This document shows, piece after piece, positions 25,728 through 34,573 of a stretch of DNA of 64,000 nucleotides. The notes under the pieces were generated by a model. The model saw nothing but the letters and a program-made list of their open reading frames with translations, was not told the DNA's origin and did no database searches. The position numbers and the translations under genes were made by a program. Position 1 is the first letter of the stretch. Every line of letters begins with the position of its first letter. The stretch covers positions 62,001-126,000 of the forward strand of contig NZ_JAQWGS010000026.1 in the NCBI RefSeq assembly GCF_029238095.1. Direction: 5' to 3'. This DNA comes from Lacinutrix sp. (lineage in GTDB: Bacteria > Bacteroidota > Bacteroidia > Flavobacteriales > Flavobacteriaceae).

Positions 25728-27056
25728 ATGAAAAAACTAGCATTACACTGGAAAATAATTATTGGAATGGTATTAGGTATCCTCTTTGGCTTTGCTATGA
25801 ATAGCATTGGTGCAGATGGAAGATTATTTGTTTCCAATTGGATTGCACCTTTTGGGACCATATTTATCAACCTTTTAAAGTTAATAGCTGTACCATTAAT
25901 TTTAGCATCTTTAATTAAAGGAATTTCAGACTTAAAAGATATTTCTAAGATAAAAAGCATGGGTTTACGCACCATATTAATCTATGTTGGCACTACCTTA
26001 ATTGCTATTATTATTGGTTTATCTATAGTTAATATAATAAAACCAGGTGCAGGAATGTCTCAAGACACTATTGAGAATATTAAGCTAAAATACGAAAATG
26101 ATGCTGGTGTTACAGATAAATTAGCAAAAGCATCTGCACAAAATGATGCAGGTCCATTACAAGCTTTAGTTGATATATTTCCAAGCAATATTTTTACTGC
26201 TTTAGGCGAAGCAAAAATGCTTCAGGTAATTTTCTTTGCACTATTTGTTGGTATTTGTTTGCTATTAATTCCTGAGAAAAAAGCTAAGCCATTGATTAAG
26301 TTTTTCGATTCGCTTAACGAAGTTGTTATGAAGATGGTAGATTTAATAATGCTTTTTGCACCTTATGCAGTGTTTGCTTTGATGGCAAATGTAATTATTG
26401 CTTTCGATGATACAGAGATATTAATAAAGCTATTGGCATATGCTGGTTGTGTTGTTTTAGGTTTAGCTTTAATGATTGGTTTCTATTTAATTTTAATAAA
26501 AGTGTACACTAAAAAATCACCATTATGGTTTTTAAAAGAAATTAGTCCTGCTCAATTACTAGCGTTCTCAACAAGTTCAAGTGCTGCTACTTTACCAGTA
26601 ACTATGGAACGTGTAGAAGAACATTTAGGTGTAGATAAAGAAGTTTCTGGATTTGTATTACCTGTTGGAGCTACAGTAAATATGGATGGAACCAGTTTGT
26701 ATCAAGGTATTGCAGCTGTATTTATTATGCAAGTTATTTGGCCAGAAGGCTTAACATTTACAAATCAATTAGTAATTATTGCAACTGCTTTATTAGCCTC
26801 TATAGGAAGTGCAGCTGTACCAAGTGCTGGAATGGTTATGTTAGTTATAGTTTTAGAGTCTATTGGTTTTCCTGCAGAATTATTACCTATTGGTTTGGCA
26901 TTAATATTCGCGGTAGATAGACCTTTAGATATGTGTAGAACAGTTGTAAATGTAACTGGAGATGCTACTGTTTCTATGATGGTTGCAAAATCTTTAGATA
27001 AATTACACGAACCAAAACCTAAAGAATGGGATGATAATTATGAAGCTGTTAAATAA
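25728..27056 (+). CDS. Dicarboxylate/amino acid:cation symporter (DAACS family)
   Basis: This 442-aa inner-membrane transporter has the family's serine-rich S-T-S-S-S-A-A-T-L-P (HP1, about residues 281-290), N-M-D-G-T-S-L-Y (about 321-328) and a late A-V-D-R-P-L-D-M-C-R-T motif in which Asp and Arg set substrate choice (about 395-405). It takes up aspartate, glutamate or C4-dicarboxylates with Na+ or H+. It lies 60 bp upstream of the ATP-grasp gene, so it may supply an amino acid to that cluster, though shared transcription is unproven. Confidence 0.9.
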   Translation: MKKLALHWKIIIGMVLGILFGFAMNSIGADGRLFVSNWIAPFGTIFINLLKLIAVPLILASLIKGISDLKDISKIKSMGLRTILIYVGTTLIAIIIGLSIVNIIKPGAGMSQDTIENIKLKYENDAGVTDKLAKASAQNDAGPLQALVDIFPSNIFTALGEAKMLQVIFFALFVGICLLLIPEKKAKPLIKFFDSLNEVVMKMVDLIMLFAPYAVFALMANVIIAFDDTEILIKLLAYAGCVVLGLALMIGFYLILIKVYTKKSPLWFLKEISPAQLLAFSTSSSAATLPVTMERVEEHLGVDKEVSGFVLPVGATVNMDGTSLYQGIAAVFIMQVIWPEGLTFTNQLVIIATALLASIGSAAVPSAGMVMLVIVLESIGFPAELLPIGLALIFAVDRPLDMCRTVVNVTGDATVSMMVAKSLDKLHEPKPKEWDDNYEAVK

Positions 27057-27116: not shown

Positions 27117-28154
27117 ATGAATATTTGCTTTATAATGTATCCTTGGAAAGAGATAGATCCAGAAAACGATACCAGTCTCGCACTTATTAAAGAATGTGTT
27201 AAAAGAGGTCATGGTGTTGCTATGTGTACTCCTGCAAACTTAACTATTAGAGATAGTGTTACCAATGCTTTTTGCAGAGTAATTAATAGAATGGAAAAAG
27301 TACCATCAACCCTAAAAAGCTTTTACGCAAAAGCAACTTTAAGAGAAGAAATGTTACCTCTTGCAGGTTTTGATGCCATTTTTTTTAGAGCAAATCCACC
27401 TTTAGATCCTATTATGCTTAATTTTTTAGACTCGGTAAAAGACGATGTTTTTATTATTAACTCGCTTCAAGGTATGCGAGAAGCAAATAACAAATTATAT
27501 ACAGCAGCTTTTGGTGATGCGCATAGTAACATTATACCAAATACGCATGTATCTAAAAATAAAGACTATTTAGTAAGACAGATAAAGGAATCTAAAGCAG
27601 ATAAAATGATTATTAAGCCACTAAATGGTTTTGGTGGTTCTGGAGTTATTTTAATAGAAAAATCCGCTATGAATAACATCAATTCTTTATTAGATTTTTA
27701 CATAAACAGTAGTGATGGTAGTTCAAATTACGTTATTCTACAAGATTATATAGAAGGTGCAGATCAAGGTGATGTAAGAATTTTAATGCTTAATGGAGAA
27801 GCTATTGGTGCCATGAAACGCGTACCAGGATCTGATGATCATCGCTCGAATGTTTCAGCTGGTGGTAGTATTGCAAAACACACGCTAACTAAAACGGAAA
27901 AAGCATTGTGCAAGCAAATTGGTCCTAAATTAGTTAAAGATGGCCTGTATTTTGTAGGTATAGATGTTATAGGTGGAAAATTGGTAGAAGTAAATGTTAT
28001 GTCTCCAGGTGGTATAACTTACATGAATAAAGTATACAAAAACAAAGTAAAAATACAAGAGAAGGTTATTGATTTTCTAGAAAGTAAAGTTGTTGATAAT
28101 TTACAGGCATTCGATAGACGTTCTAGATTACGTAAAAGAGTAGAAGATGCTTAA
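27117..28154 (+). CDS. GshB-like ATP-grasp ligase
   Basis: This 345-aa protein is built like prokaryotic glutathione synthetase: an N-terminal substrate domain (M-N-I-C-F-I-M-Y-P-W, about 1-120), then an ATP-grasp domain with K-P-L-N-G-F-G-G-S-G-V (about 162-172), R-I-L-M-L-N-G-E (about 220), and the metal-binding E-V-N-V-M-S-P-G-G (about 290-298). Such enzymes join a carboxylate to an amine through an acyl phosphate. Because the organism has bshA and no gshA is visible, true glutathione synthesis is doubtful. The downstream amidohydrolase and QEGLA genes suggest a peptide-type product. Substrates are unknown. Confidence 0.82.
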   Translation: MNICFIMYPWKEIDPENDTSLALIKECVKRGHGVAMCTPANLTIRDSVTNAFCRVINRMEKVPSTLKSFYAKATLREEMLPLAGFDAIFFRANPPLDPIMLNFLDSVKDDVFIINSLQGMREANNKLYTAAFGDAHSNIIPNTHVSKNKDYLVRQIKESKADKMIIKPLNGFGGSGVILIEKSAMNNINSLLDFYINSSDGSSNYVILQDYIEGADQGDVRILMLNGEAIGAMKRVPGSDDHRSNVSAGGSIAKHTLTKTEKALCKQIGPKLVKDGLYFVGIDVIGGKLVEVNVMSPGGITYMNKVYKNKVKIQEKVIDFLESKVVDNLQAFDRRSRLRKRVEDA

Positions 28155-28257
28155 TTATTGTTATATTTAATATCAATTATATATTAAATCTTGCACCTTG
28201 TTTTACAAGAAAACATGTCCTGATTTTTTTAAACATAAATTAAGAACCATATTAAAA

Positions 28258-29088
28258 ATGTCTGAAATCACAGAAATAGACAATATAGTTTCTGTAGAAT
28301 GGTTATACAATCATATACAAGATACAAACCTCTTAGTGTTTGACGCTACAATCTCTAAGGTTATAGGGGGCGTTTCGGCTTTAGAAACAATGAAATTGCC
28401 TGGTGCTCAGTTTTTCGACATTAAAAATAAGTTTAGCAATAGGAATGCAACTTTTCCAAACACAATCCCTAGTACTCAACAATTTGAAACTGCTGCTCAA
28501 GAATTAGGTATTAATAATAATTCTACTATTGTTATTTACGATAGTCATGGTATTTATTCTAGTGCTAGAGCTTGGTGGTTATTAAAAACCTTTGGTTTAA
28601 AAAATGCAGCAATTTTAGATGGAGGTTTACCAGAATGGAAAACTAAAGGCTATCCTTTAGAAGAAAAAACAACTAATAACAGTGTTAAAAAAGGCGATTT
28701 TAAAGCGCACTATAATTCTGATCAAGTTGTATATATTGATTCTCTTGACGCTATTACAAAAGATAAAAAATTTAAAATTATTGATGCAAGATCAAGCGAT
28801 AGATTTAATTGTATAGTAGCAGAACCAAGAACAGGTTTAAGAAGTGGAACCATACCTTCGTCTGTAAACTTACCATTTAATCACGTTTTAAATGGTAATA
28901 AACTAAAGTCTAAAGAAGAGTTACATGCTGTTTTTAGTGCATTGGCACAACATAATCAACATTTAGTATTTACTTGTGGCTCTGGAATTACTGCTTAAGT
29001 TTTAGCTTTGGCTGCAACCGTTGCAGGATTTCGTAATAGCGTTTACGATGGCTCATGGACAGAATACGGAACTTTAAAAATCTCATAA
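28258..29088 (+). pseudogene. Sulfurtransferase (two-rhodanese type) interrupted by an in-frame TAA
   Basis: The frame from ATG 28258 encodes a tandem-rhodanese protein (V-S-V-E-W-L near the start, V-I-Y-D-S-H-G-I-Y-S-S-A-R in the first half, D-A-R-S in the second) and reaches the active-site loop T-C-G-S-G-I-T-A. A TAA (28996-28998) follows directly. The same frame then continues with V-L-A-L-A-A and D-G-S-W-T-E-Y-G, the usual family ending, to a second stop at 29086-29088. So a complete 276-codon gene is cut by one nonsense codon, leaving 246 residues without the last helix and strand. It is either a recent pseudogene or a sequence error. A TTG start at 28198 is disfavoured. Confidence 0.85.
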
Positions 29089-29090
29089 CT

Positions 29091-29426
29091 ATGAATACTC
29101 CCAATCAATGGACTAAAAAAGAATTGGTCGCTTATATTTTATTGTTTATTTCAAATTCAGATTTACAGCAGTCTGTTGAGGAAACAAATTATATTCGCTC
29201 TAGAGTAGATAAAAAGACTTACACGAATGTTTACAAGCAGTTTAATAAAGATAATGATTACCAATGCATACAAAATATAATTAAAGCTGTTAAAACACAT
29301 AATTATTACGAAAATGATTATGCCGAGTTATTTGCTGATATTAAATTAATGATTTATGCAGATGGCGAATCTAATGAAATGGAAGAAGCAACATTATCGT
29401 TTATCCGAAAAATTTTAAAAGAATAA
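29091..29426 (+). CDS. Small helical protein, possibly TerB-like
   Basis: ATG 29091 gives 111 aa, starting two bases after the broken sulfurtransferase's final stop. The product looks all-helical. Its C-terminal part (L-F-A-D-I-K-L-M-I-Y-A-D-G-E, then E-E-A-T-L-S-F-I) resembles the acidic A-D-G-E helix of TerB/DjlA-type metal-binding domains, but similarity is limited. A longer frame from 29055 overlaps the upstream gene and is rejected. It is packed 8 bp before the amidohydrolase gene, suggesting a shared transcript. Confidence 0.6.
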   Translation: MNTPNQWTKKELVAYILLFISNSDLQQSVEETNYIRSRVDKKTYTNVYKQFNKDNDYQCIQNIIKAVKTHNYYENDYAELFADIKLMIYADGESNEMEEATLSFIRKILKE

Positions 29427-29434
29427 TCAAATAG

Positions 29435-30265
29435 ATGGAAAGGCTAACAATCCAACAGATACTAGATAAAATAAATGCTGAAGAAACCTTTCATGCTGTT
29501 TCAAGCGATTATTCTTTTACTTTAAAAATAGATAGTTATGTACACTACGTTTGTGGTGCAGTACATGATGGACATCAATTTAGAAAAGATCTATGGGACA
29601 ATTGTTTACATACCGAATATGAACGTTGGTATGAGGAAGATCCAGAAACTAAAAACATGGTTATTTCTCATCCTATTCTTATTGCTGGAATGGACTCACG
29701 TTTTGAATACGACTTAAATCGTGCTCCCGAAACTGCAATTTACGTTGATGCTTGGGGAAAACAATTATGGAAAAAACCACTACCAGACCAGGAGAGGCAA
29801 AAATCTTTAAATAAACATCATGCTTTTTATAAGGTTGTTAACGCTTTGATTTCTAAAATTGAAGAGAAATTTGGAATATGTGTGGTATACGATATGCATA
29901 GCTATAACTGGAAACGTTGGGATAGAGCAGTGCCAACATGGAATTTAGGAACAAGTAATGTAGACCAAACTCGATTTAATGAAGATATAAATTCTTGGAG
30001 TGAGAGCTTAGGTAAATTACAATTACCTGGTGGAATACAATCGACTTCTAAAATTAATGACACCTTTCAAGGTAATGGTTATTTCTTGAAATTCATTTCT
30101 CAGAACTTTCAAAACACTTTGGTTTTAGCAACCGAAATCGCAAAAGTATATTGCGATGAGTACGATTATATTATGTATCCTGAAGTTGTAGCATCGGTAG
30201 AAAAACAATTGAGAACGCGTTTAGTAGATCATGCAAATTCATTTTATAACAGACATAAAAAATAA
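29435..30265 (+). CDS. N-formylglutamate amidohydrolase-like zinc hydrolase
   Basis: This 276-aa protein matches the FGase family: an early zinc-site block V-H-D-G-H-Q-F (about 43-49), R-F-E-Y-D-L-N-R-A (about 89-97), the V-Y-D-M-H-S-Y-N segment (about 150-157) and a C-terminal region typical of the group. Family members hydrolyse N-acyl-glutamate or related amides and share a fold with M14-like carboxypeptidases. No histidine-utilisation genes surround it, so a role in histidine breakdown is unlikely. It overlaps the QEGLA gene by one base (TAATG), which points to tight coupling. Confidence 0.83.
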   Translation: MERLTIQQILDKINAEETFHAVSSDYSFTLKIDSYVHYVCGAVHDGHQFRKDLWDNCLHTEYERWYEEDPETKNMVISHPILIAGMDSRFEYDLNRAPETAIYVDAWGKQLWKKPLPDQERQKSLNKHHAFYKVVNALISKIEEKFGICVVYDMHSYNWKRWDRAVPTWNLGTSNVDQTRFNEDINSWSESLGKLQLPGGIQSTSKINDTFQGNGYFLKFISQNFQNTLVLATEIAKVYCDEYDYIMYPEVVASVEKQLRTRLVDHANSFYNRHKK

Positions 30266-31425
30266 TGGTGACAGAAAAGCTAATAAAATCTTACCAAAAC
30301 CTATTTGATATCGATTCTAATTTAGATCGTTTGGTAAAAAAAATTGAATTACTAAACTATATCAATCCATTAAATATCGAAAGTGAAAAAAAACATTTTT
30401 TCTCTTCAAAGTTTAATTATGAGCCCAATTTTAAGTACCCAAAAATTAGGTTTAATGGTTATAAGTTGCACAGACTCTTTTTTTCTCAACGTTTAGAACG
30501 CATAAAAGATGAAGACATTCGTAATTTATATAAAGATATAATTTATGAATACTCTGGTTTAATAGAGTGCATAGAAACCATAGGTCAAGGCAAAAAATTC
30601 TACTATAATAGTCTTAAAAGTTTTGGAACACCAACAGAGCGTGATATTGAAAACGCAAAATTTATACTGCGTTTCGATAATAGTGATTTTGAAGAAGACT
30701 TACTACCATTATACAATGTTGATGATGCTATTGACTATTTTGAAGCGTTTAGAACACGTTACGATTTTGACTTTACCATTAAAAAATCGACCAATATTGC
30801 AGCAGCAGCAATGGTTCAAAACAATACAAAAACCTTGCTTTTAAGAAAAAACCATAAGTTTAGTAAAAACCAACTTAAAGTTTTAGCAAACCATGAAATT
30901 GGTGTGCATTTAGTCACTACTTTTAATAGTATAAATCAACCATTAAAGATTTTTTCTAATGGTTTTCCTAACAATGTTGAAACACAAGAAGGCTTAGCTG
31001 TATATTCAGAATATAAATCTGGTTGCTTAACTATTACTAGACTTAAAGAATTGGCTTATCGTGTTATTGCTACAGATTCTTTGGCTAAAGGTTATAATTT
31101 CTCTGATACTTTTCATTTATTACATAATCAATACAAAGTTAACAGAGATAAAGCATTCTCGATTACTATAAGAGTGCATAGAGGAGGAGGCTTTACAAAA
31201 GACCATTTGTATTTAACAGGCTTAAAAAAGGTGTATAGATACGCTAAAGATGAAAACGATCTTGATGTGTTACTTACTGGAAAAGTAACCTTAGAATATA
31301 AAGAAGTGATTACAAAGTTGCAATCTTTAGGTCTTGCTAATACTTCTAAATATTACACAGATGCTTATTTAAATACAGATGCTTCAGAAAAAAATTTCGA
31401 TTTTATATTAAACAGTTTAAAGTAG
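30265..31425 (+). CDS. QEGLA-motif (DUF1704/TIGR02421) metallopeptidase-like protein
   Basis: This 386-aa protein has H-E-I-G-V-H (about 210-215), the eponymous Q-E-G-L-A (about 242-246) and a later R-V-H-R-G-G-G-F-T-K-D segment (about 301-311). The HExxxH plus downstream Glu layout is a zinc-peptidase-type site. Eukaryotic DUF1704 relatives (MATCAP/KIAA0895L) are tubulin tyrosine carboxypeptidases, so a carboxypeptidase activity on a short peptide or protein tail is a reasonable inference. The bacterial family has also been named for modulating flavohemoglobin expression, without a known mechanism. It ends the cluster. Confidence 0.82.
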   Translation: MVTEKLIKSYQNLFDIDSNLDRLVKKIELLNYINPLNIESEKKHFFSSKFNYEPNFKYPKIRFNGYKLHRLFFSQRLERIKDEDIRNLYKDIIYEYSGLIECIETIGQGKKFYYNSLKSFGTPTERDIENAKFILRFDNSDFEEDLLPLYNVDDAIDYFEAFRTRYDFDFTIKKSTNIAAAAMVQNNTKTLLLRKNHKFSKNQLKVLANHEIGVHLVTTFNSINQPLKIFSNGFPNNVETQEGLAVYSEYKSGCLTITRLKELAYRVIATDSLAKGYNFSDTFHLLHNQYKVNRDKAFSITIRVHRGGGFTKDHLYLTGLKKVYRYAKDENDLDVLLTGKVTLEYKEVITKLQSLGLANTSKYYTDAYLNTDASEKNFDFILNSLK

Positions 31426-31465
31426 CTTTATATATTCAATTTTAGAAAAATTAAAAGTTTATGTT

Positions 31466-31643
31466 CTAAAGTCACTTACCTAAACACAGTTTAAAAAATA
31501 AAGTCTCAAAGTAAACACATATTCTGTTCAGTAACCATTAACTGAAGCTTCTAAAGCCTAGACTAAAAACTGTAAAAGAGCCTACTCGTTCTTAATTCAC
31601 AGGAATTAAGGTAAACTAACTGTGTTATACTTTAAGACTTTAG
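31466..31643. ncRNA. Candidate structured RNA in the intergenic region 31426-31803
   Basis: The 378-bp gap between the QEGLA gene and the DCC gene has no ORF longer than about 20 codons. It holds nested complementary arms: CTAAAGTC (31466-31473) with GACTTTAG (31636-31643), then AACACAGTT (31483-31491) with AACTGTGTT (31618-31626), separated by a symmetric 9x9 internal loop. Inside are two further hairpins: TTCAGT/ACTGAA (31527-31546) and an 8-bp stem CTTAATTC/GAATTAAG with a 4-nt loop (31591-31610). The rod-with-bubble shape recalls 6S-like RNAs, but family and strand are not resolved. No clear promoter or T-tract was found. Confidence 0.4.
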
Positions 31644-31803
31644 TAATCTCTGCTTACATAAAAGTAAAAGCAATTTGGCTTGATATAAAACTACAATGAG
31701 TAAACAGCACTTTTTAATGCGTGAATGCAGTAATTATAATAGTTAACGCAATTTGTAACAGTATATTTTAATGTATATAAAGCTATAAAAAGAATGTGCT
31801 TGG

Positions 31804-32235
31804 CTAATTTAATTTGCCAATAAACTTAGCTTTTAATTCAGGTGTTGGTATCCAACACGACTCCTTCTTTCCATACCATTTATAACGGTTTTTTGCTATA
31901 AAATCGTAAACCCAATTACGAATAAAAGTAGGAATAATTAAAAATATAGAGAGGAGTTGTAATGGAAAATCTAAACTTTTTGCAGCATGTAATGCAGCAG
32001 TAGATTTTATTTTTAACGTCTCGTTTTGTGGTGAATAAAGTAAAATAGAATCTGTTTTTGAAGGATCTACATTAAAATGCTTTATTACTTGTTTACCAAC
32101 GTCACTTTGTAAAGCAGCAAACATAAAAACATTGTTTTTATCATGATTAATAACATATTGGACAGATGAGCTGCATAGGTTGCAAACACCATCAAAAAGT
32201 ATTAATTTTTTATGTTTTGGTATATCATTTATCAC
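31804..32235 (-). CDS. DCC-family (DUF393) thiol-disulfide oxidoreductase-like protein
   Basis: This 143-aa protein has the family signature L-F-D-G-V-C-N-L-C (residues 13-21), a CxxC within a thioredoxin-like fold. The body and the closing R-Y-K-W-Y-G-K-K segment are typical of flavobacterial members. The redox partner is unknown. The only fitting start is GTG at 32235-32233. A TATTTTTG -7 box (32247-32240) ends just 4 bp upstream, so the mRNA may be leaderless or nearly so. It is separated from mutS2 by 172 bp with no gene. Confidence 0.85.
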   Translation of the reverse strand: MINDIPKHKKLILFDGVCNLCSSSVQYVINHDKNNVFMFAALQSDVGKQVIKHFNVDPSKTDSILLYSPQNETLKIKSTAALHAAKSLDFPLQLLSIFLIIPTFIRNWVYDFIAKNRYKWYGKKESCWIPTPELKAKFIGKLN

Positions 32236-32239
32236 AATA

Positions 32240-32247
32240 CAAAAATA
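32240..32247 (-). promoter_or_regulatory. -7 promoter box of the DCC gene
   Basis: On the minus strand this reads TATTTTTG, an exact TAnnTTTG match, ending 4 bp before the GTG start. With the usual 5-7 nt from box to start site, transcription would begin at or inside the start codon. Confidence 0.5.
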
Positions 32248-32407
32248 CGGATTTTGTTAGAATTTTAAGCATATAAGTGTGAGTTCGAAAGAAATTCTTC
32301 TTTAAATTTTGTTATTGAGATCTTTATAAAAAGTTTAAAGTAATTTACTTAGGTTTCGGAATCAATATAAGACGCGAGCTTACTAACACATAAGGAATTA
32401 ATAAAAA

Positions 32408-34573
32408 CTACTTAACTGCTTCAACCAACTCTAATAAATCAATATTAACATTGGTAGTAAACATACCATAATTAACAATTGCTTTACCTTTTTCTAATGC
32501 ATCTATAGTTCCAATAGCTCTACCATCGTGCATTCTTACACGATCGCCTATTTTAAGAATAGGTTTTGGTTTCTCTATTGGAATAGCTTTTTTCTTAGCT
32601 TCTTTTTTCTTTTTTCTAATAACTTCAACCTTTTGTTCTGCTTCTTTTTTAATTTGAACTTCTTTAACTTTTTCGGCTTTAGCTTGTTTAGCAGATACTT
32701 TTTTACGTTTAGAATTCTCTATTTGTACAATACGAAACAACTCTGCCATAAGTTCACGTTTCTTATTATCTTTAAAAAATTTTTCAGAAATATCATTTAC
32801 CTTTTGCCCTAAGTATATTAAGCGCTGATTACTATCATACAATTCTTGATAGCTCTCCAGTTTTTTTTGAATCTTTGTATTTATTTCTTCTAATTTATAG
32901 GCTTCAGATTGTTTTTTTTGTTCGTTCTTCTTTAAAGATTCACCAGTTTTTTCAAGTCTTGCACGTTCTTTTTGAAGTTTAGCAATGGTCGCATCAAAAC
33001 GCACTTTTGAACGTTCTATCTTCTTTTTAGAACGGTTAATTAAACTGTAAGGGATTCCGTTTTTTTGTGCCACTTCAAATGTAAACGAAGAACCTGCTTG
33101 ACCTAAAGCCAGTTTGTATAATGGTTCTAGTGTACGCTCGTCAAACATCATATTAGCGTTAATCATTTCTGGTTTCTCGTTGGCCAACATTTTTAAATTT
33201 GCATAATGTGTGGTTATAATCCCAAAAGCATTTCTGGCATAAAATTCTTCTAAAAACGTTTCAGCTAATGCACCACCAAGTTCAGGATCAGATCCTGTAC
33301 CAAATTCATCAATTAAAAACAGCGTGTTTTTGTTTACTTTCTTTAAAAAGTAATTCATCTGTTTTAATCTATAACTGTAAGTACTTAATTGGTTTTCAAT
33401 AGATTGATTGTCTCCAATATCTGTTAAAATGCGATCAAATAAAGTTACTTTACTACGTTCATGAACAGGAATTAGCATGCCACTTTGCAACATTAATTGC
33501 AATAAACCAACCGTTTTTAAGGTGATACTTTTTCCTCCTGCATTAGGTCCAGAAATAACAATAATACGTTTGTCATTATTAAGAGTGATGGTTTGTGGAA
33601 ATGTTTTTTCTTTCTTTTCTTTATTGCTTAAATAGAGAAGTGGATGGTAGGCATCGCGTAAAAACAGCTCTCTATTCTCACTTATTTCTGGCAAAATACC
33701 ATCCATAGATCTAGCATATTTTGCTTTGGCAGATATAACATCAATATCTATTAAGAATTTTTGGTATTGCGTTATTAAAGGTAAAAACTCACGTAAAAAA
33801 TTAGTGACTTCTTTTAATATTCTAACCACTTCTTCACCTTCTTCGTACTGCAAGTTATTGAGCTCTCTGCTATATTGTAAGGTAGTTTCAGGTTCAATAT
33901 AAACAATACTTCCGGTTTTACTTCCACCCATTATGGCTCCTTTAACCTTACGTCTATACATAGCTTTAACAGCTAGTACTCGTTTATTTTCGACAACCGA
34001 CTCTCTAATATCGTCAAGGTAGTCTAGATTATGGTATTGGTTTAATGCTGAACTAAAACTAGAATTAATTTTACCTTTAAGTTTATTTATAGTTTGTCGA
34101 ATCTCCTGAAGCAATGTAGATGCATTGTCTTTTACATCTCCAAATCTATCTACAACACTGTCAATTTTTTCTATAAGCACTGTAGTTACCTCTACACGTT
34201 TTGAAAACCTATTTAAGTTTGGGTAATATTCTTCAAACTTGATTAAAAATTTAACAATTTCGTTTGCTGTTAGCGAAATCGAGATAATTTTTTTTAAACT
34301 ATGAGTTTCTAAATAGGTGTTTTCTATGCGCAGTAATTGTAATTCTTTGGTAATGGCATCGAAACCATGGTTTGGTATACGATTATCGTTATAAAACGAA
34401 GACACATACTCATTAGTTAATAATAAAGCATTAAGTAAGGTCTCTTTATCCTGAAAAGGCTCTATTTCAGATGCTTTTTGGTTGCCTAAACTTGTAACGC
34501 AGTACTTGCTTAATTGCTCTAAAACGGTAGCGAATTCTAGATCTTGTAATGTTTTTTTATGGATGTTAATCAT
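32408..34573 (-). CDS. mutS2: MutS2 family DNA-binding ATPase without Smr domain
   Basis: ATG 34573 gives 721 aa; a TTG four codons earlier is less likely. The N-terminal core/lever region (about 1-290) leads to a MutS-type ABC ATPase with G-P-N-A-G-G-K-S (about 330-337) and D-E-F-G-T-G-S-D-P (about 410-418). A long Lys/Glu-rich coiled coil follows (about 510-660), and the protein ends in a small beta domain (I-G-D-R-V-R-M). The C-terminal Smr nuclease domain of Bacillus-type MutS2 is absent, as I recall for many Bacteroidota. A role in suppressing recombination or in rescue of collided ribosomes is possible. A 7-bp hairpin (34579-34596) sits just before the start. Confidence 0.88.
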   Translation of the reverse strand: MINIHKKTLQDLEFATVLEQLSKYCVTSLGNQKASEIEPFQDKETLLNALLLTNEYVSSFYNDNRIPNHGFDAITKELQLLRIENTYLETHSLKKIISISLTANEIVKFLIKFEEYYPNLNRFSKRVEVTTVLIEKIDSVVDRFGDVKDNASTLLQEIRQTINKLKGKINSSFSSALNQYHNLDYLDDIRESVVENKRVLAVKAMYRRKVKGAIMGGSKTGSIVYIEPETTLQYSRELNNLQYEEGEEVVRILKEVTNFLREFLPLITQYQKFLIDIDVISAKAKYARSMDGILPEISENRELFLRDAYHPLLYLSNKEKKEKTFPQTITLNNDKRIIVISGPNAGGKSITLKTVGLLQLMLQSGMLIPVHERSKVTLFDRILTDIGDNQSIENQLSTYSYRLKQMNYFLKKVNKNTLFLIDEFGTGSDPELGGALAETFLEEFYARNAFGIITTHYANLKMLANEKPEMINANMMFDERTLEPLYKLALGQAGSSFTFEVAQKNGIPYSLINRSKKKIERSKVRFDATIAKLQKERARLEKTGESLKKNEQKKQSEAYKLEEINTKIQKKLESYQELYDSNQRLIYLGQKVNDISEKFFKDNKKRELMAELFRIVQIENSKRKKVSAKQAKAEKVKEVQIKKEAEQKVEVIRKKKKEAKKKAIPIEKPKPILKIGDRVRMHDGRAIGTIDALEKGKAIVNYGMFTTNVNIDLLELVEAVK

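Follow-up and report, generated by a model that had tools for sequence, protein, structure and literature searches.

A conserved trio of GshB-like ligase, amidohydrolase-fold enzyme and MATCAP/QEGLA metallopeptidase in Lacinutrix sp. as a candidate writer-eraser set

In the systems for N-acetylglutaminylglutamine amide (NAGGN) and N-acetylaspartylglutamate, one small acidic peptide is handled by an ATP-grasp ligase together with a peptidase or deacylase. A different pairing of bond-making and bond-breaking enzymes acts on the tail of tubulin, from which the metallopeptidase MATCAP takes off the C-terminal tyrosine and then glutamate, according to the available parts of two reports (PMC10499314, PMC12393276). 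Here we describe a locus in a 64,000-nucleotide stretch of DNA from Lacinutrix sp. (RefSeq assembly GCF_029238095.1, contig NZ_JAQWGS010000026.1, positions 62,001 to 126,000; the window), in which a bacterial MATCAP relative, the QEGLA protein, is encoded beside a GshB-like ATP-grasp ligase and a metal hydrolase of the N-formylglutamate-amidohydrolase fold (FGase). These three genes are very likely functionally linked, with the linkage conserved across genomes, and we consider it somewhat probable that the trio is a writer-eraser set making and unmaking an amide or peptide bond on one, most likely small acidic, substrate. The genome around the window comprises 27 contigs and 2,315,783 bases, with a completeness of 89.09%, and the genes of the locus are as follows.

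25728-27056, + strand: sodium:dicarboxylate symporter family gene, upstream (PF00375, 5.7e-125)
27117-28154, + strand: GshB-like ATP-grasp ligase, subfamily PRK12458, here ligase A (PF02955, PF02951, NF009110/PRK12458; catalytic residues kept)
28258-28998 (mechanical open reading frame from 28198), + strand: rhodanese or 3-mercaptopyruvate-sulfurtransferase-like protein, shortened by an in-frame TAA; accessory by its look (PF00581)
29091-29426 (mechanical open reading frame from 29055), + strand: small helical protein, possibly TerB-like, judging from the predicted fold alone; accessory by its look
29435-30265, + strand: FGase (PF05013, structure model)
30265-31425, + strand: MATCAP/QEGLA metallopeptidase with HEIGVH and QEGLA motifs (PF08014)

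An earlier note, made from the sequence alone, had named the ligase, the small protein, the FGase and the QEGLA protein. All four were confirmed on the + strand within 27117-31425 by open reading frames and Pfam scores, as was the stated one-base overlap of the last two (TAATG at 30263-30267). The rhodanese at 28258-28998 had been overlooked, and the label 'TerB-like' for the small protein found no backing in Pfam (PF05099, 13.1 bits against a cut-off of 24.4).

We compared the locus with 80 others fetched by QEGLA similarity, the best 80 of 567 confirmed candidates, which we take from their names, as far as recognised, to belong to Flavobacteriaceae or Bacteroidia. Ligase, FGase and QEGLA genes stood in identical order and on the same strand in 75 of the 80, which excludes chance for the three enzymes; a further locus (L068) begins inside FGase at a contig end, and its ligase could not be judged. 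The trio came without rhodanese or small gene in 49 loci, with the rhodanese in 10 (including two rhodanese-small fusions, L074 and L076), with both genes in 10 and with the small gene only in 6. FGase and QEGLA were separated by at most 84 bases in all 76 loci compared and overlapped in 50 of them, as reckoned from mechanical starts. In L031, L032, L146, L153 and L155 they were fused into one protein, with the ligase adjoining. In one locus (L114) the FGase appeared as two pieces. The usual Flavobacteriaceae site, in most loci mapped, was aroC - symporter - trio - DCC1 - MutS2.

The same linkage appeared in whole genomes. Among 60 genomes, including the window's own, QEGLA was found in 18, and the ligase query matched at E <1e-30 in exactly the same 18. 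Ligase matches of any kind at 0.001 extended to 38 genomes, with the additional 20 no stronger than 2.7e-19; judged by length and score, these would be a remnant in one genome (G017) and otherwise RimK-like proteins. FGase matched at E <1e-100 in 15 genomes, 14 of which belonged to the 18 with QEGLA, the fifteenth being G022. The four QEGLA genomes without it (G003, G019, G026 and G034) carried an AstE/AspA-type gene downstream of the ligase.

In a second arrangement, type II, an FGase gene is followed by the gene for a long QEGLA protein (about 610-690 aa) and then by that for ligase B; it occurs in other Bacteroidota and in rhizobia, including pSymB of S. meliloti 1021 (L132), and here an AstE/AspA-type enzyme can replace FGase. 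In Shinella, its genes are annotated as N-formylglutamate amidohydrolase, QEGLA protein and glutathione synthetase, and four hybrid loci (L037, L038, L140 and L141) carry both ligases. Of 20 long-QEGLA loci, 12 had FGase, 7 had an AstE/AspA-type gene in its stead (on the opposite strand in L149), none had both and one had neither (L041). PF24827 was confirmed in all four scanned members of the seven-member AstE/AspA-type family (65-67 bits versus 25). The replacement of one hydrolase by the other suggests, at the level of enzyme families, that what stays constant is amide hydrolysis at an acidic amino acid. Long QEGLA proteins have an additional N-terminal domain, which could itself be aligned to FGase at an hhalign probability of 91.7 (P 7.7e-7), with the metal motifs lacking. 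Across a phylum-wide sample of 296 genomes, own included, PF08014 was present in 16, and a PRK12458-type ligase adjoined QEGLA in 14 of the 15 other loci, the exception being L148.

Losses and relocations followed a pattern of their own. FGase was not matched by profile search in five short-QEGLA-only cases (L103, L118, L123, L126 and L028 of G019), a search that had no internal control in those genomes, the same model matching 16 of 60 genomes elsewhere. A close ligase was not found in the genomes of L103, L118, L123 and L126 (best E 5e-17), and G019 carries a type II pair at another place. Vibrio sp. HDW18 encodes a fused FGase-QEGLA protein beside maoP, with no ligase within the fetched 15-kb stretch and with altered motif residues in the FGase part (His47 to Ser, His155 to Tyr and Ser156 to Ala). 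Two Photobacterium have the ligase present at the maoP site, with FGase motifs intact in the one aligned (L153); since these copies lie elsewhere than the Flavobacteriaceae site, at least one transfer of the trio is suggested. From these loss patterns, ligase and FGase tend to go together and QEGLA is able to persist alone. The usual site was inspected in two genomes without the full trio (L160 and L161). In L161 (7010-8387), a 67-residue ligase remnant stands with the rhodanese and small gene, FGase and QEGLA being gone, and the remnant suggests that the trio was lost there.

The active sites of both hydrolases appear intact. FGase matched PF05013 at 2.8e-12 (47.7 bits versus a cut-off of 28.9), and its structure model (predicted local distance difference test, pLDDT, 94.8) resembled the N-formylglutamate amidohydrolases 2q7s (Z 24.9, 2.4 Å over 235 residues) and 2odf (Z 21.9), followed by M14-type carboxypeptidases and the succinylglutamate desuccinylase 1yw4 (Z about 11-13). 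It has fold and motifs in common with these amidohydrolases and with AstE/aspartoacylase, and its metal motifs are invariant in our alignment (A4). Unlike HutG, it falls far under the deformylase model (TIGR02017, 16.7 versus 278.75), and there are no hut genes among the open reading frames listed around it. The QEGLA protein matched PF08014 at 1.2e-96 (324.3 bits versus 27); H210, E211, H215 and E242 were invariant across 10 aligned sequences, and HExxxH and QEGLA motifs occurred together in 79 of the 80 loci, the remaining one being without the second motif as searched. It thus shares its Pfam family with MATCAP/TMCP (KIAA0895L, KIAA0895), and profile alignment matched both of its motifs to human MATCAP, HExxxH to HExxxH and QEGLA within the (E/Q)EG metal motif. 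Unlike those proteins, the window's QEGLA protein, known here from sequence, is bacterial, has no tubulin to act on and is encoded beside a ligase and an amidohydrolase. It scored below the NCBIfam hypothetical equivalog TIGR02421 (307 versus 338.65), whose public name, 'flavohemoglobin expression-modulating', we met in one paper only, as a table label; we found no evidence for the named function.

The ligase carries GSH-S_ATP (PF02955, 1.5e-53) and GSH-S_N (PF02951, 3.1e-24), and its best curated match was NF009110/PRK12458 (460.3 bits versus 408), for which the NCBI name is also glutathione synthetase. E. coli GshB (1gsa) is the closest solved structure by sequence (E 1e-37), and the ligase keeps the ATP-grasp residues K125, K160, R210, D273, E281 and N283 of that enzyme, which we take to be catalytic. 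In contrast to this likeness, a tree built from 87 ligase A and 19 ligase B sequences together with three canonical GshB, one of E. coli and two encoded next to gamma-glutamylcysteine-ligase genes in plasmid records, and rooted by choice at the split between A+B and canonical GshB, supported that split at 0.994. Five positions, including Ser244 and Gly298, were near-invariant in A and B and different in all three canonical sequences. The partner that supplies gamma-glutamylcysteine was scarce as well: in a search that covered PF04262 and GCS2, leaving aside PF08886 and PF03074, PF04262 occurred in 0 of the 60 genomes, with controls including E. coli and Bacteroides ihuae matched, and GCS2 in 13. 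Only 1 of 13 ligase-A genomes had GCS2, namely the window's own, where it lies in a separate cluster. An ordinary glutathione synthetase, which the earlier note had named as the finding that would undo its proposal, is unlikely because of these two counts, and the product of the trio is likely not glutathione. Among published surveys, a study of lactic acid bacteria, in its available part, likewise counts PRK12458 as GshB (PMC3462692).

Among the titles and abstract openings listed in our literature searches, none describes the trio; the survey of amidoligase gene neighbourhoods by Iyer et al. 2009, which reportedly covers the class of ATP-grasp plus peptidase, could not be checked. We take COG3930 to be the DUF1704 group, to which the earlier note assigned the QEGLA protein. 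The accessible part of a study of Vibrio vulnificus lists VV2_1203 (COG3930) and VV2_1204 (glutathione synthetase) as clade 2-specific, likewise a lone COG3930 gene, VV1_0515 (PMC3091676). In Photobacterium damselae at 1% versus 3% NaCl, the parts available of another study report 'Glutathione synthase GshB' A0J47_RS17020 up 38.42-fold and 'QEGLA motif protein' A0J47_RS17025 up 27.51-fold, with the former treated by the authors as glutathione synthetase (PMC10308900). The adjacent tags agree with the gene order in two other Photobacterium; from adjacency and order we infer that the induced genes belong to this trio, which is then probably switched on in Photobacterium at falling salinity.

Our best guess, drawn from the enzyme families, is writer-eraser chemistry on a small acidic peptide. 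A GshB-type ATP-grasp enzyme would activate a carboxylate and join an amino acid; a MATCAP-type QEGLA enzyme would, like its human relatives, take off a C-terminal residue; and an FGase-fold enzyme would hydrolyse an amide on an acidic amino acid, with removal of an N-acyl group or an acidic residue. The substrate would most likely be a small acidic, perhaps N-acylated, peptide, somewhat as N-acetylaspartylglutamate or NAGGN, with a C-terminal tail on a protein as the close alternative. What we observed is that the trio is conserved and keeps its gene order, that the hydrolases can be fused or exchanged, that the active-site motifs are intact and that a gamma-glutamylcysteine ligase partner is scarce. 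The interpretation in the earlier note is partly supported: the lack of a conserved neighbourhood, which by its own account would have refuted it, is contradicted by a trio seen again in Flavobacteriaceae and other Bacteroidota as well as in Photobacterium and rhizobia, and its idea of making and trimming a peptide or tail agrees with the enzyme families, except that the small gene it had included is not core.

Several points weigh against this reading. Its reactions and substrate class would follow from enzyme families, not from biochemistry. The 80 loci were selected by QEGLA similarity, and the genomes that share the genes are relatives of one another, so that their counts are not independent. 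QEGLA stands alone in 4 of the 80 loci and also in L148, whereas G022 has FGase near a contig end (L160:7971-8801) and no QEGLA in the genome. On an Ensifer plasmid, a ligase B relative annotated 'glutathione synthetase' (L165:4001-5047) has no QEGLA among its annotated neighbours, which include an adjoining GNAT gene and, two genes away, an L,D-transpeptidase. The ligase narrowly passes the PRK05246 glutathione-synthase equivalog (279.2 versus 272), and five trio genomes out of 18 (G000, G003, G019, G025 and G026) carry GCS2. The comparison with NAGGN and N-acetylaspartylglutamate is one of how the systems work only: those systems use other peptidase families, and the trio is without an acyltransferase. 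Finally, as far as the available data for P. damselae go, the ligase gene rises at low salt, contrary to a classical high-salt osmolyte, and NAGGN-like osmolyte synthesis, our first functional idea, is weakened because of it.

As the main rival, which we hold to be unlikely, the ligase would extend a bacterial protein at its C-terminus by at least one residue, QEGLA would undo the extension and FGase would be a second eraser, by analogy with TTL-type ligases and MATCAP on tubulin, RimK on ribosomal protein S6 and the M14-fold CCP enzymes. It has to contend with a ligase nearest to GshB, an enzyme of small peptides, with the FGase and AstE/AspA families, whose substrates are free N-acyl amino acids, and with the lack of a constant neighbour gene for an acceptor protein in the loci mapped. 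The only studied QEGLA relatives do act on protein tails, as described in the available parts of two papers (PMC10499314, PMC12393276), FGase has its fold in common with M14-type carboxypeptidases, and RimK, an ATP-grasp glutamate ligase, is up 52.24-fold in the same low-salinity table of P. damselae, as available (PMC10308900). A bolder version, in our view a long shot, makes the trio the bacterial counterpart of the tubulin-tail code of eukaryotes and perhaps its source. In a salinity-responsive cycle, the C-terminus of a protein or peptide of the bacterium would be written by the ATP-grasp enzyme and erased by the MATCAP-family enzyme and, as second eraser, by the one with the M14 fold; eukaryotes would then have retained the MATCAP eraser and given it a different ATP-grasp-type writer (TTL) as partner.

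Scavenging, in which the hydrolases would degrade acidic N-acyl peptides from outside and the ligase merely recycle or store a fragment, strikes us as quite improbable. Hydrolases make up two of the three enzymes and form a single protein in some lineages; QEGLA-only loci exist; and 44 of 75 loci have a dicarboxylate symporter gene no more than 700 bases upstream of the ligase gene, a possible partner or maybe synteny alone. No such symporter was detected close to the trio in several loci of Aquimarina, in two Photobacterium or in Shinella, however, and the five short-QEGLA-only cases lost FGase along with the neighbouring ligase instead of keeping it with QEGLA. Least probable of all, and very unlikely in our estimate, is a role in glutathione or another thiol, with the ligase as glutathione synthetase and the rhodanese and hydrolases in thiol turnover. 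The PRK05246 score, the five trio genomes with GCS2 and the rhodanese between ligase and FGase in 20 of the 80 loci speak for it; the ligase nevertheless misses the TIGR01380 equivalog (232.5 versus 299.05), PF04262 is absent from the set of 60, the sole GCS2 among ligase-A genomes sits in another cluster, and the rhodanese and the small gene are both missing from 49 of the 80 loci that nevertheless hold the trio.

By its context, a gene publicly annotated as glutathione synthetase belongs to a different pathway that is still uncharacterised. Its strong induction at low salt was discussed as that of glutathione synthetase in at least one publication (PMC10308900), the identity with the trio being our reading. 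The trio also makes it possible to test, in bacteria, a peptidase family described on tubulin only in the literature found, as far as its available parts go, and the defined three-gene set in the tractable S. meliloti 1021 is a place to seek a new peptide metabolite or protein modification.

The rhodanese and small protein look accessory. We rejected either as a core part or acceptor on two grounds: both are missing from 49 of the 80 loci although the trio is there, and L161 kept both after losing it. The rhodanese matched PF00581 at 4.9e-21 and PRK11493 at 195.6 bits, under the cut-off of 250. Its in-frame TAA (28996-28998) falls about 30 residues short of the usual end, and the frame past it stays open for 29 codons, encoding the C-terminus normal in relatives. 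This stretch (28996-29088 with the stop) may reflect a nonsense mutation of recent date or a fault in the assembly. The model of the small protein (pLDDT 83.1) had as its standout match 2h5n (PG1108), which we count as TerB-like, with Z 9.1 over 99 residues, within the range of helical bundles, and a Foldseek E of 0.099. A defence-system reading was dropped, since a PADLOC scan with 5027 models at E 0.01 gave 0 matches for 6 proteins.

The window genome holds a second cluster on one strand (L162:4562-7913; contig C12 of G000, about 30561-33912), with a 227-aa FGase, a GCS2-family ligase and an RLAN-domain ATP-grasp protein. Divergent, shorter QEGLA proteins (about 424-445 aa) occur alone in Pseudoalteromonas, Aeromonas, Legionella adelaidensis and one Bacteroidota (L135:6968-8248, L136, L137 and L148), and the stretches fetched around them showed neither ligase nor FGase. 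A scan of 50,697 phage records gave a sole match, a QEGLA-like stretch in the UNVERIFIED record of Pseudomonas phage Y1 (OQ572403.1; L154:3001-3618).

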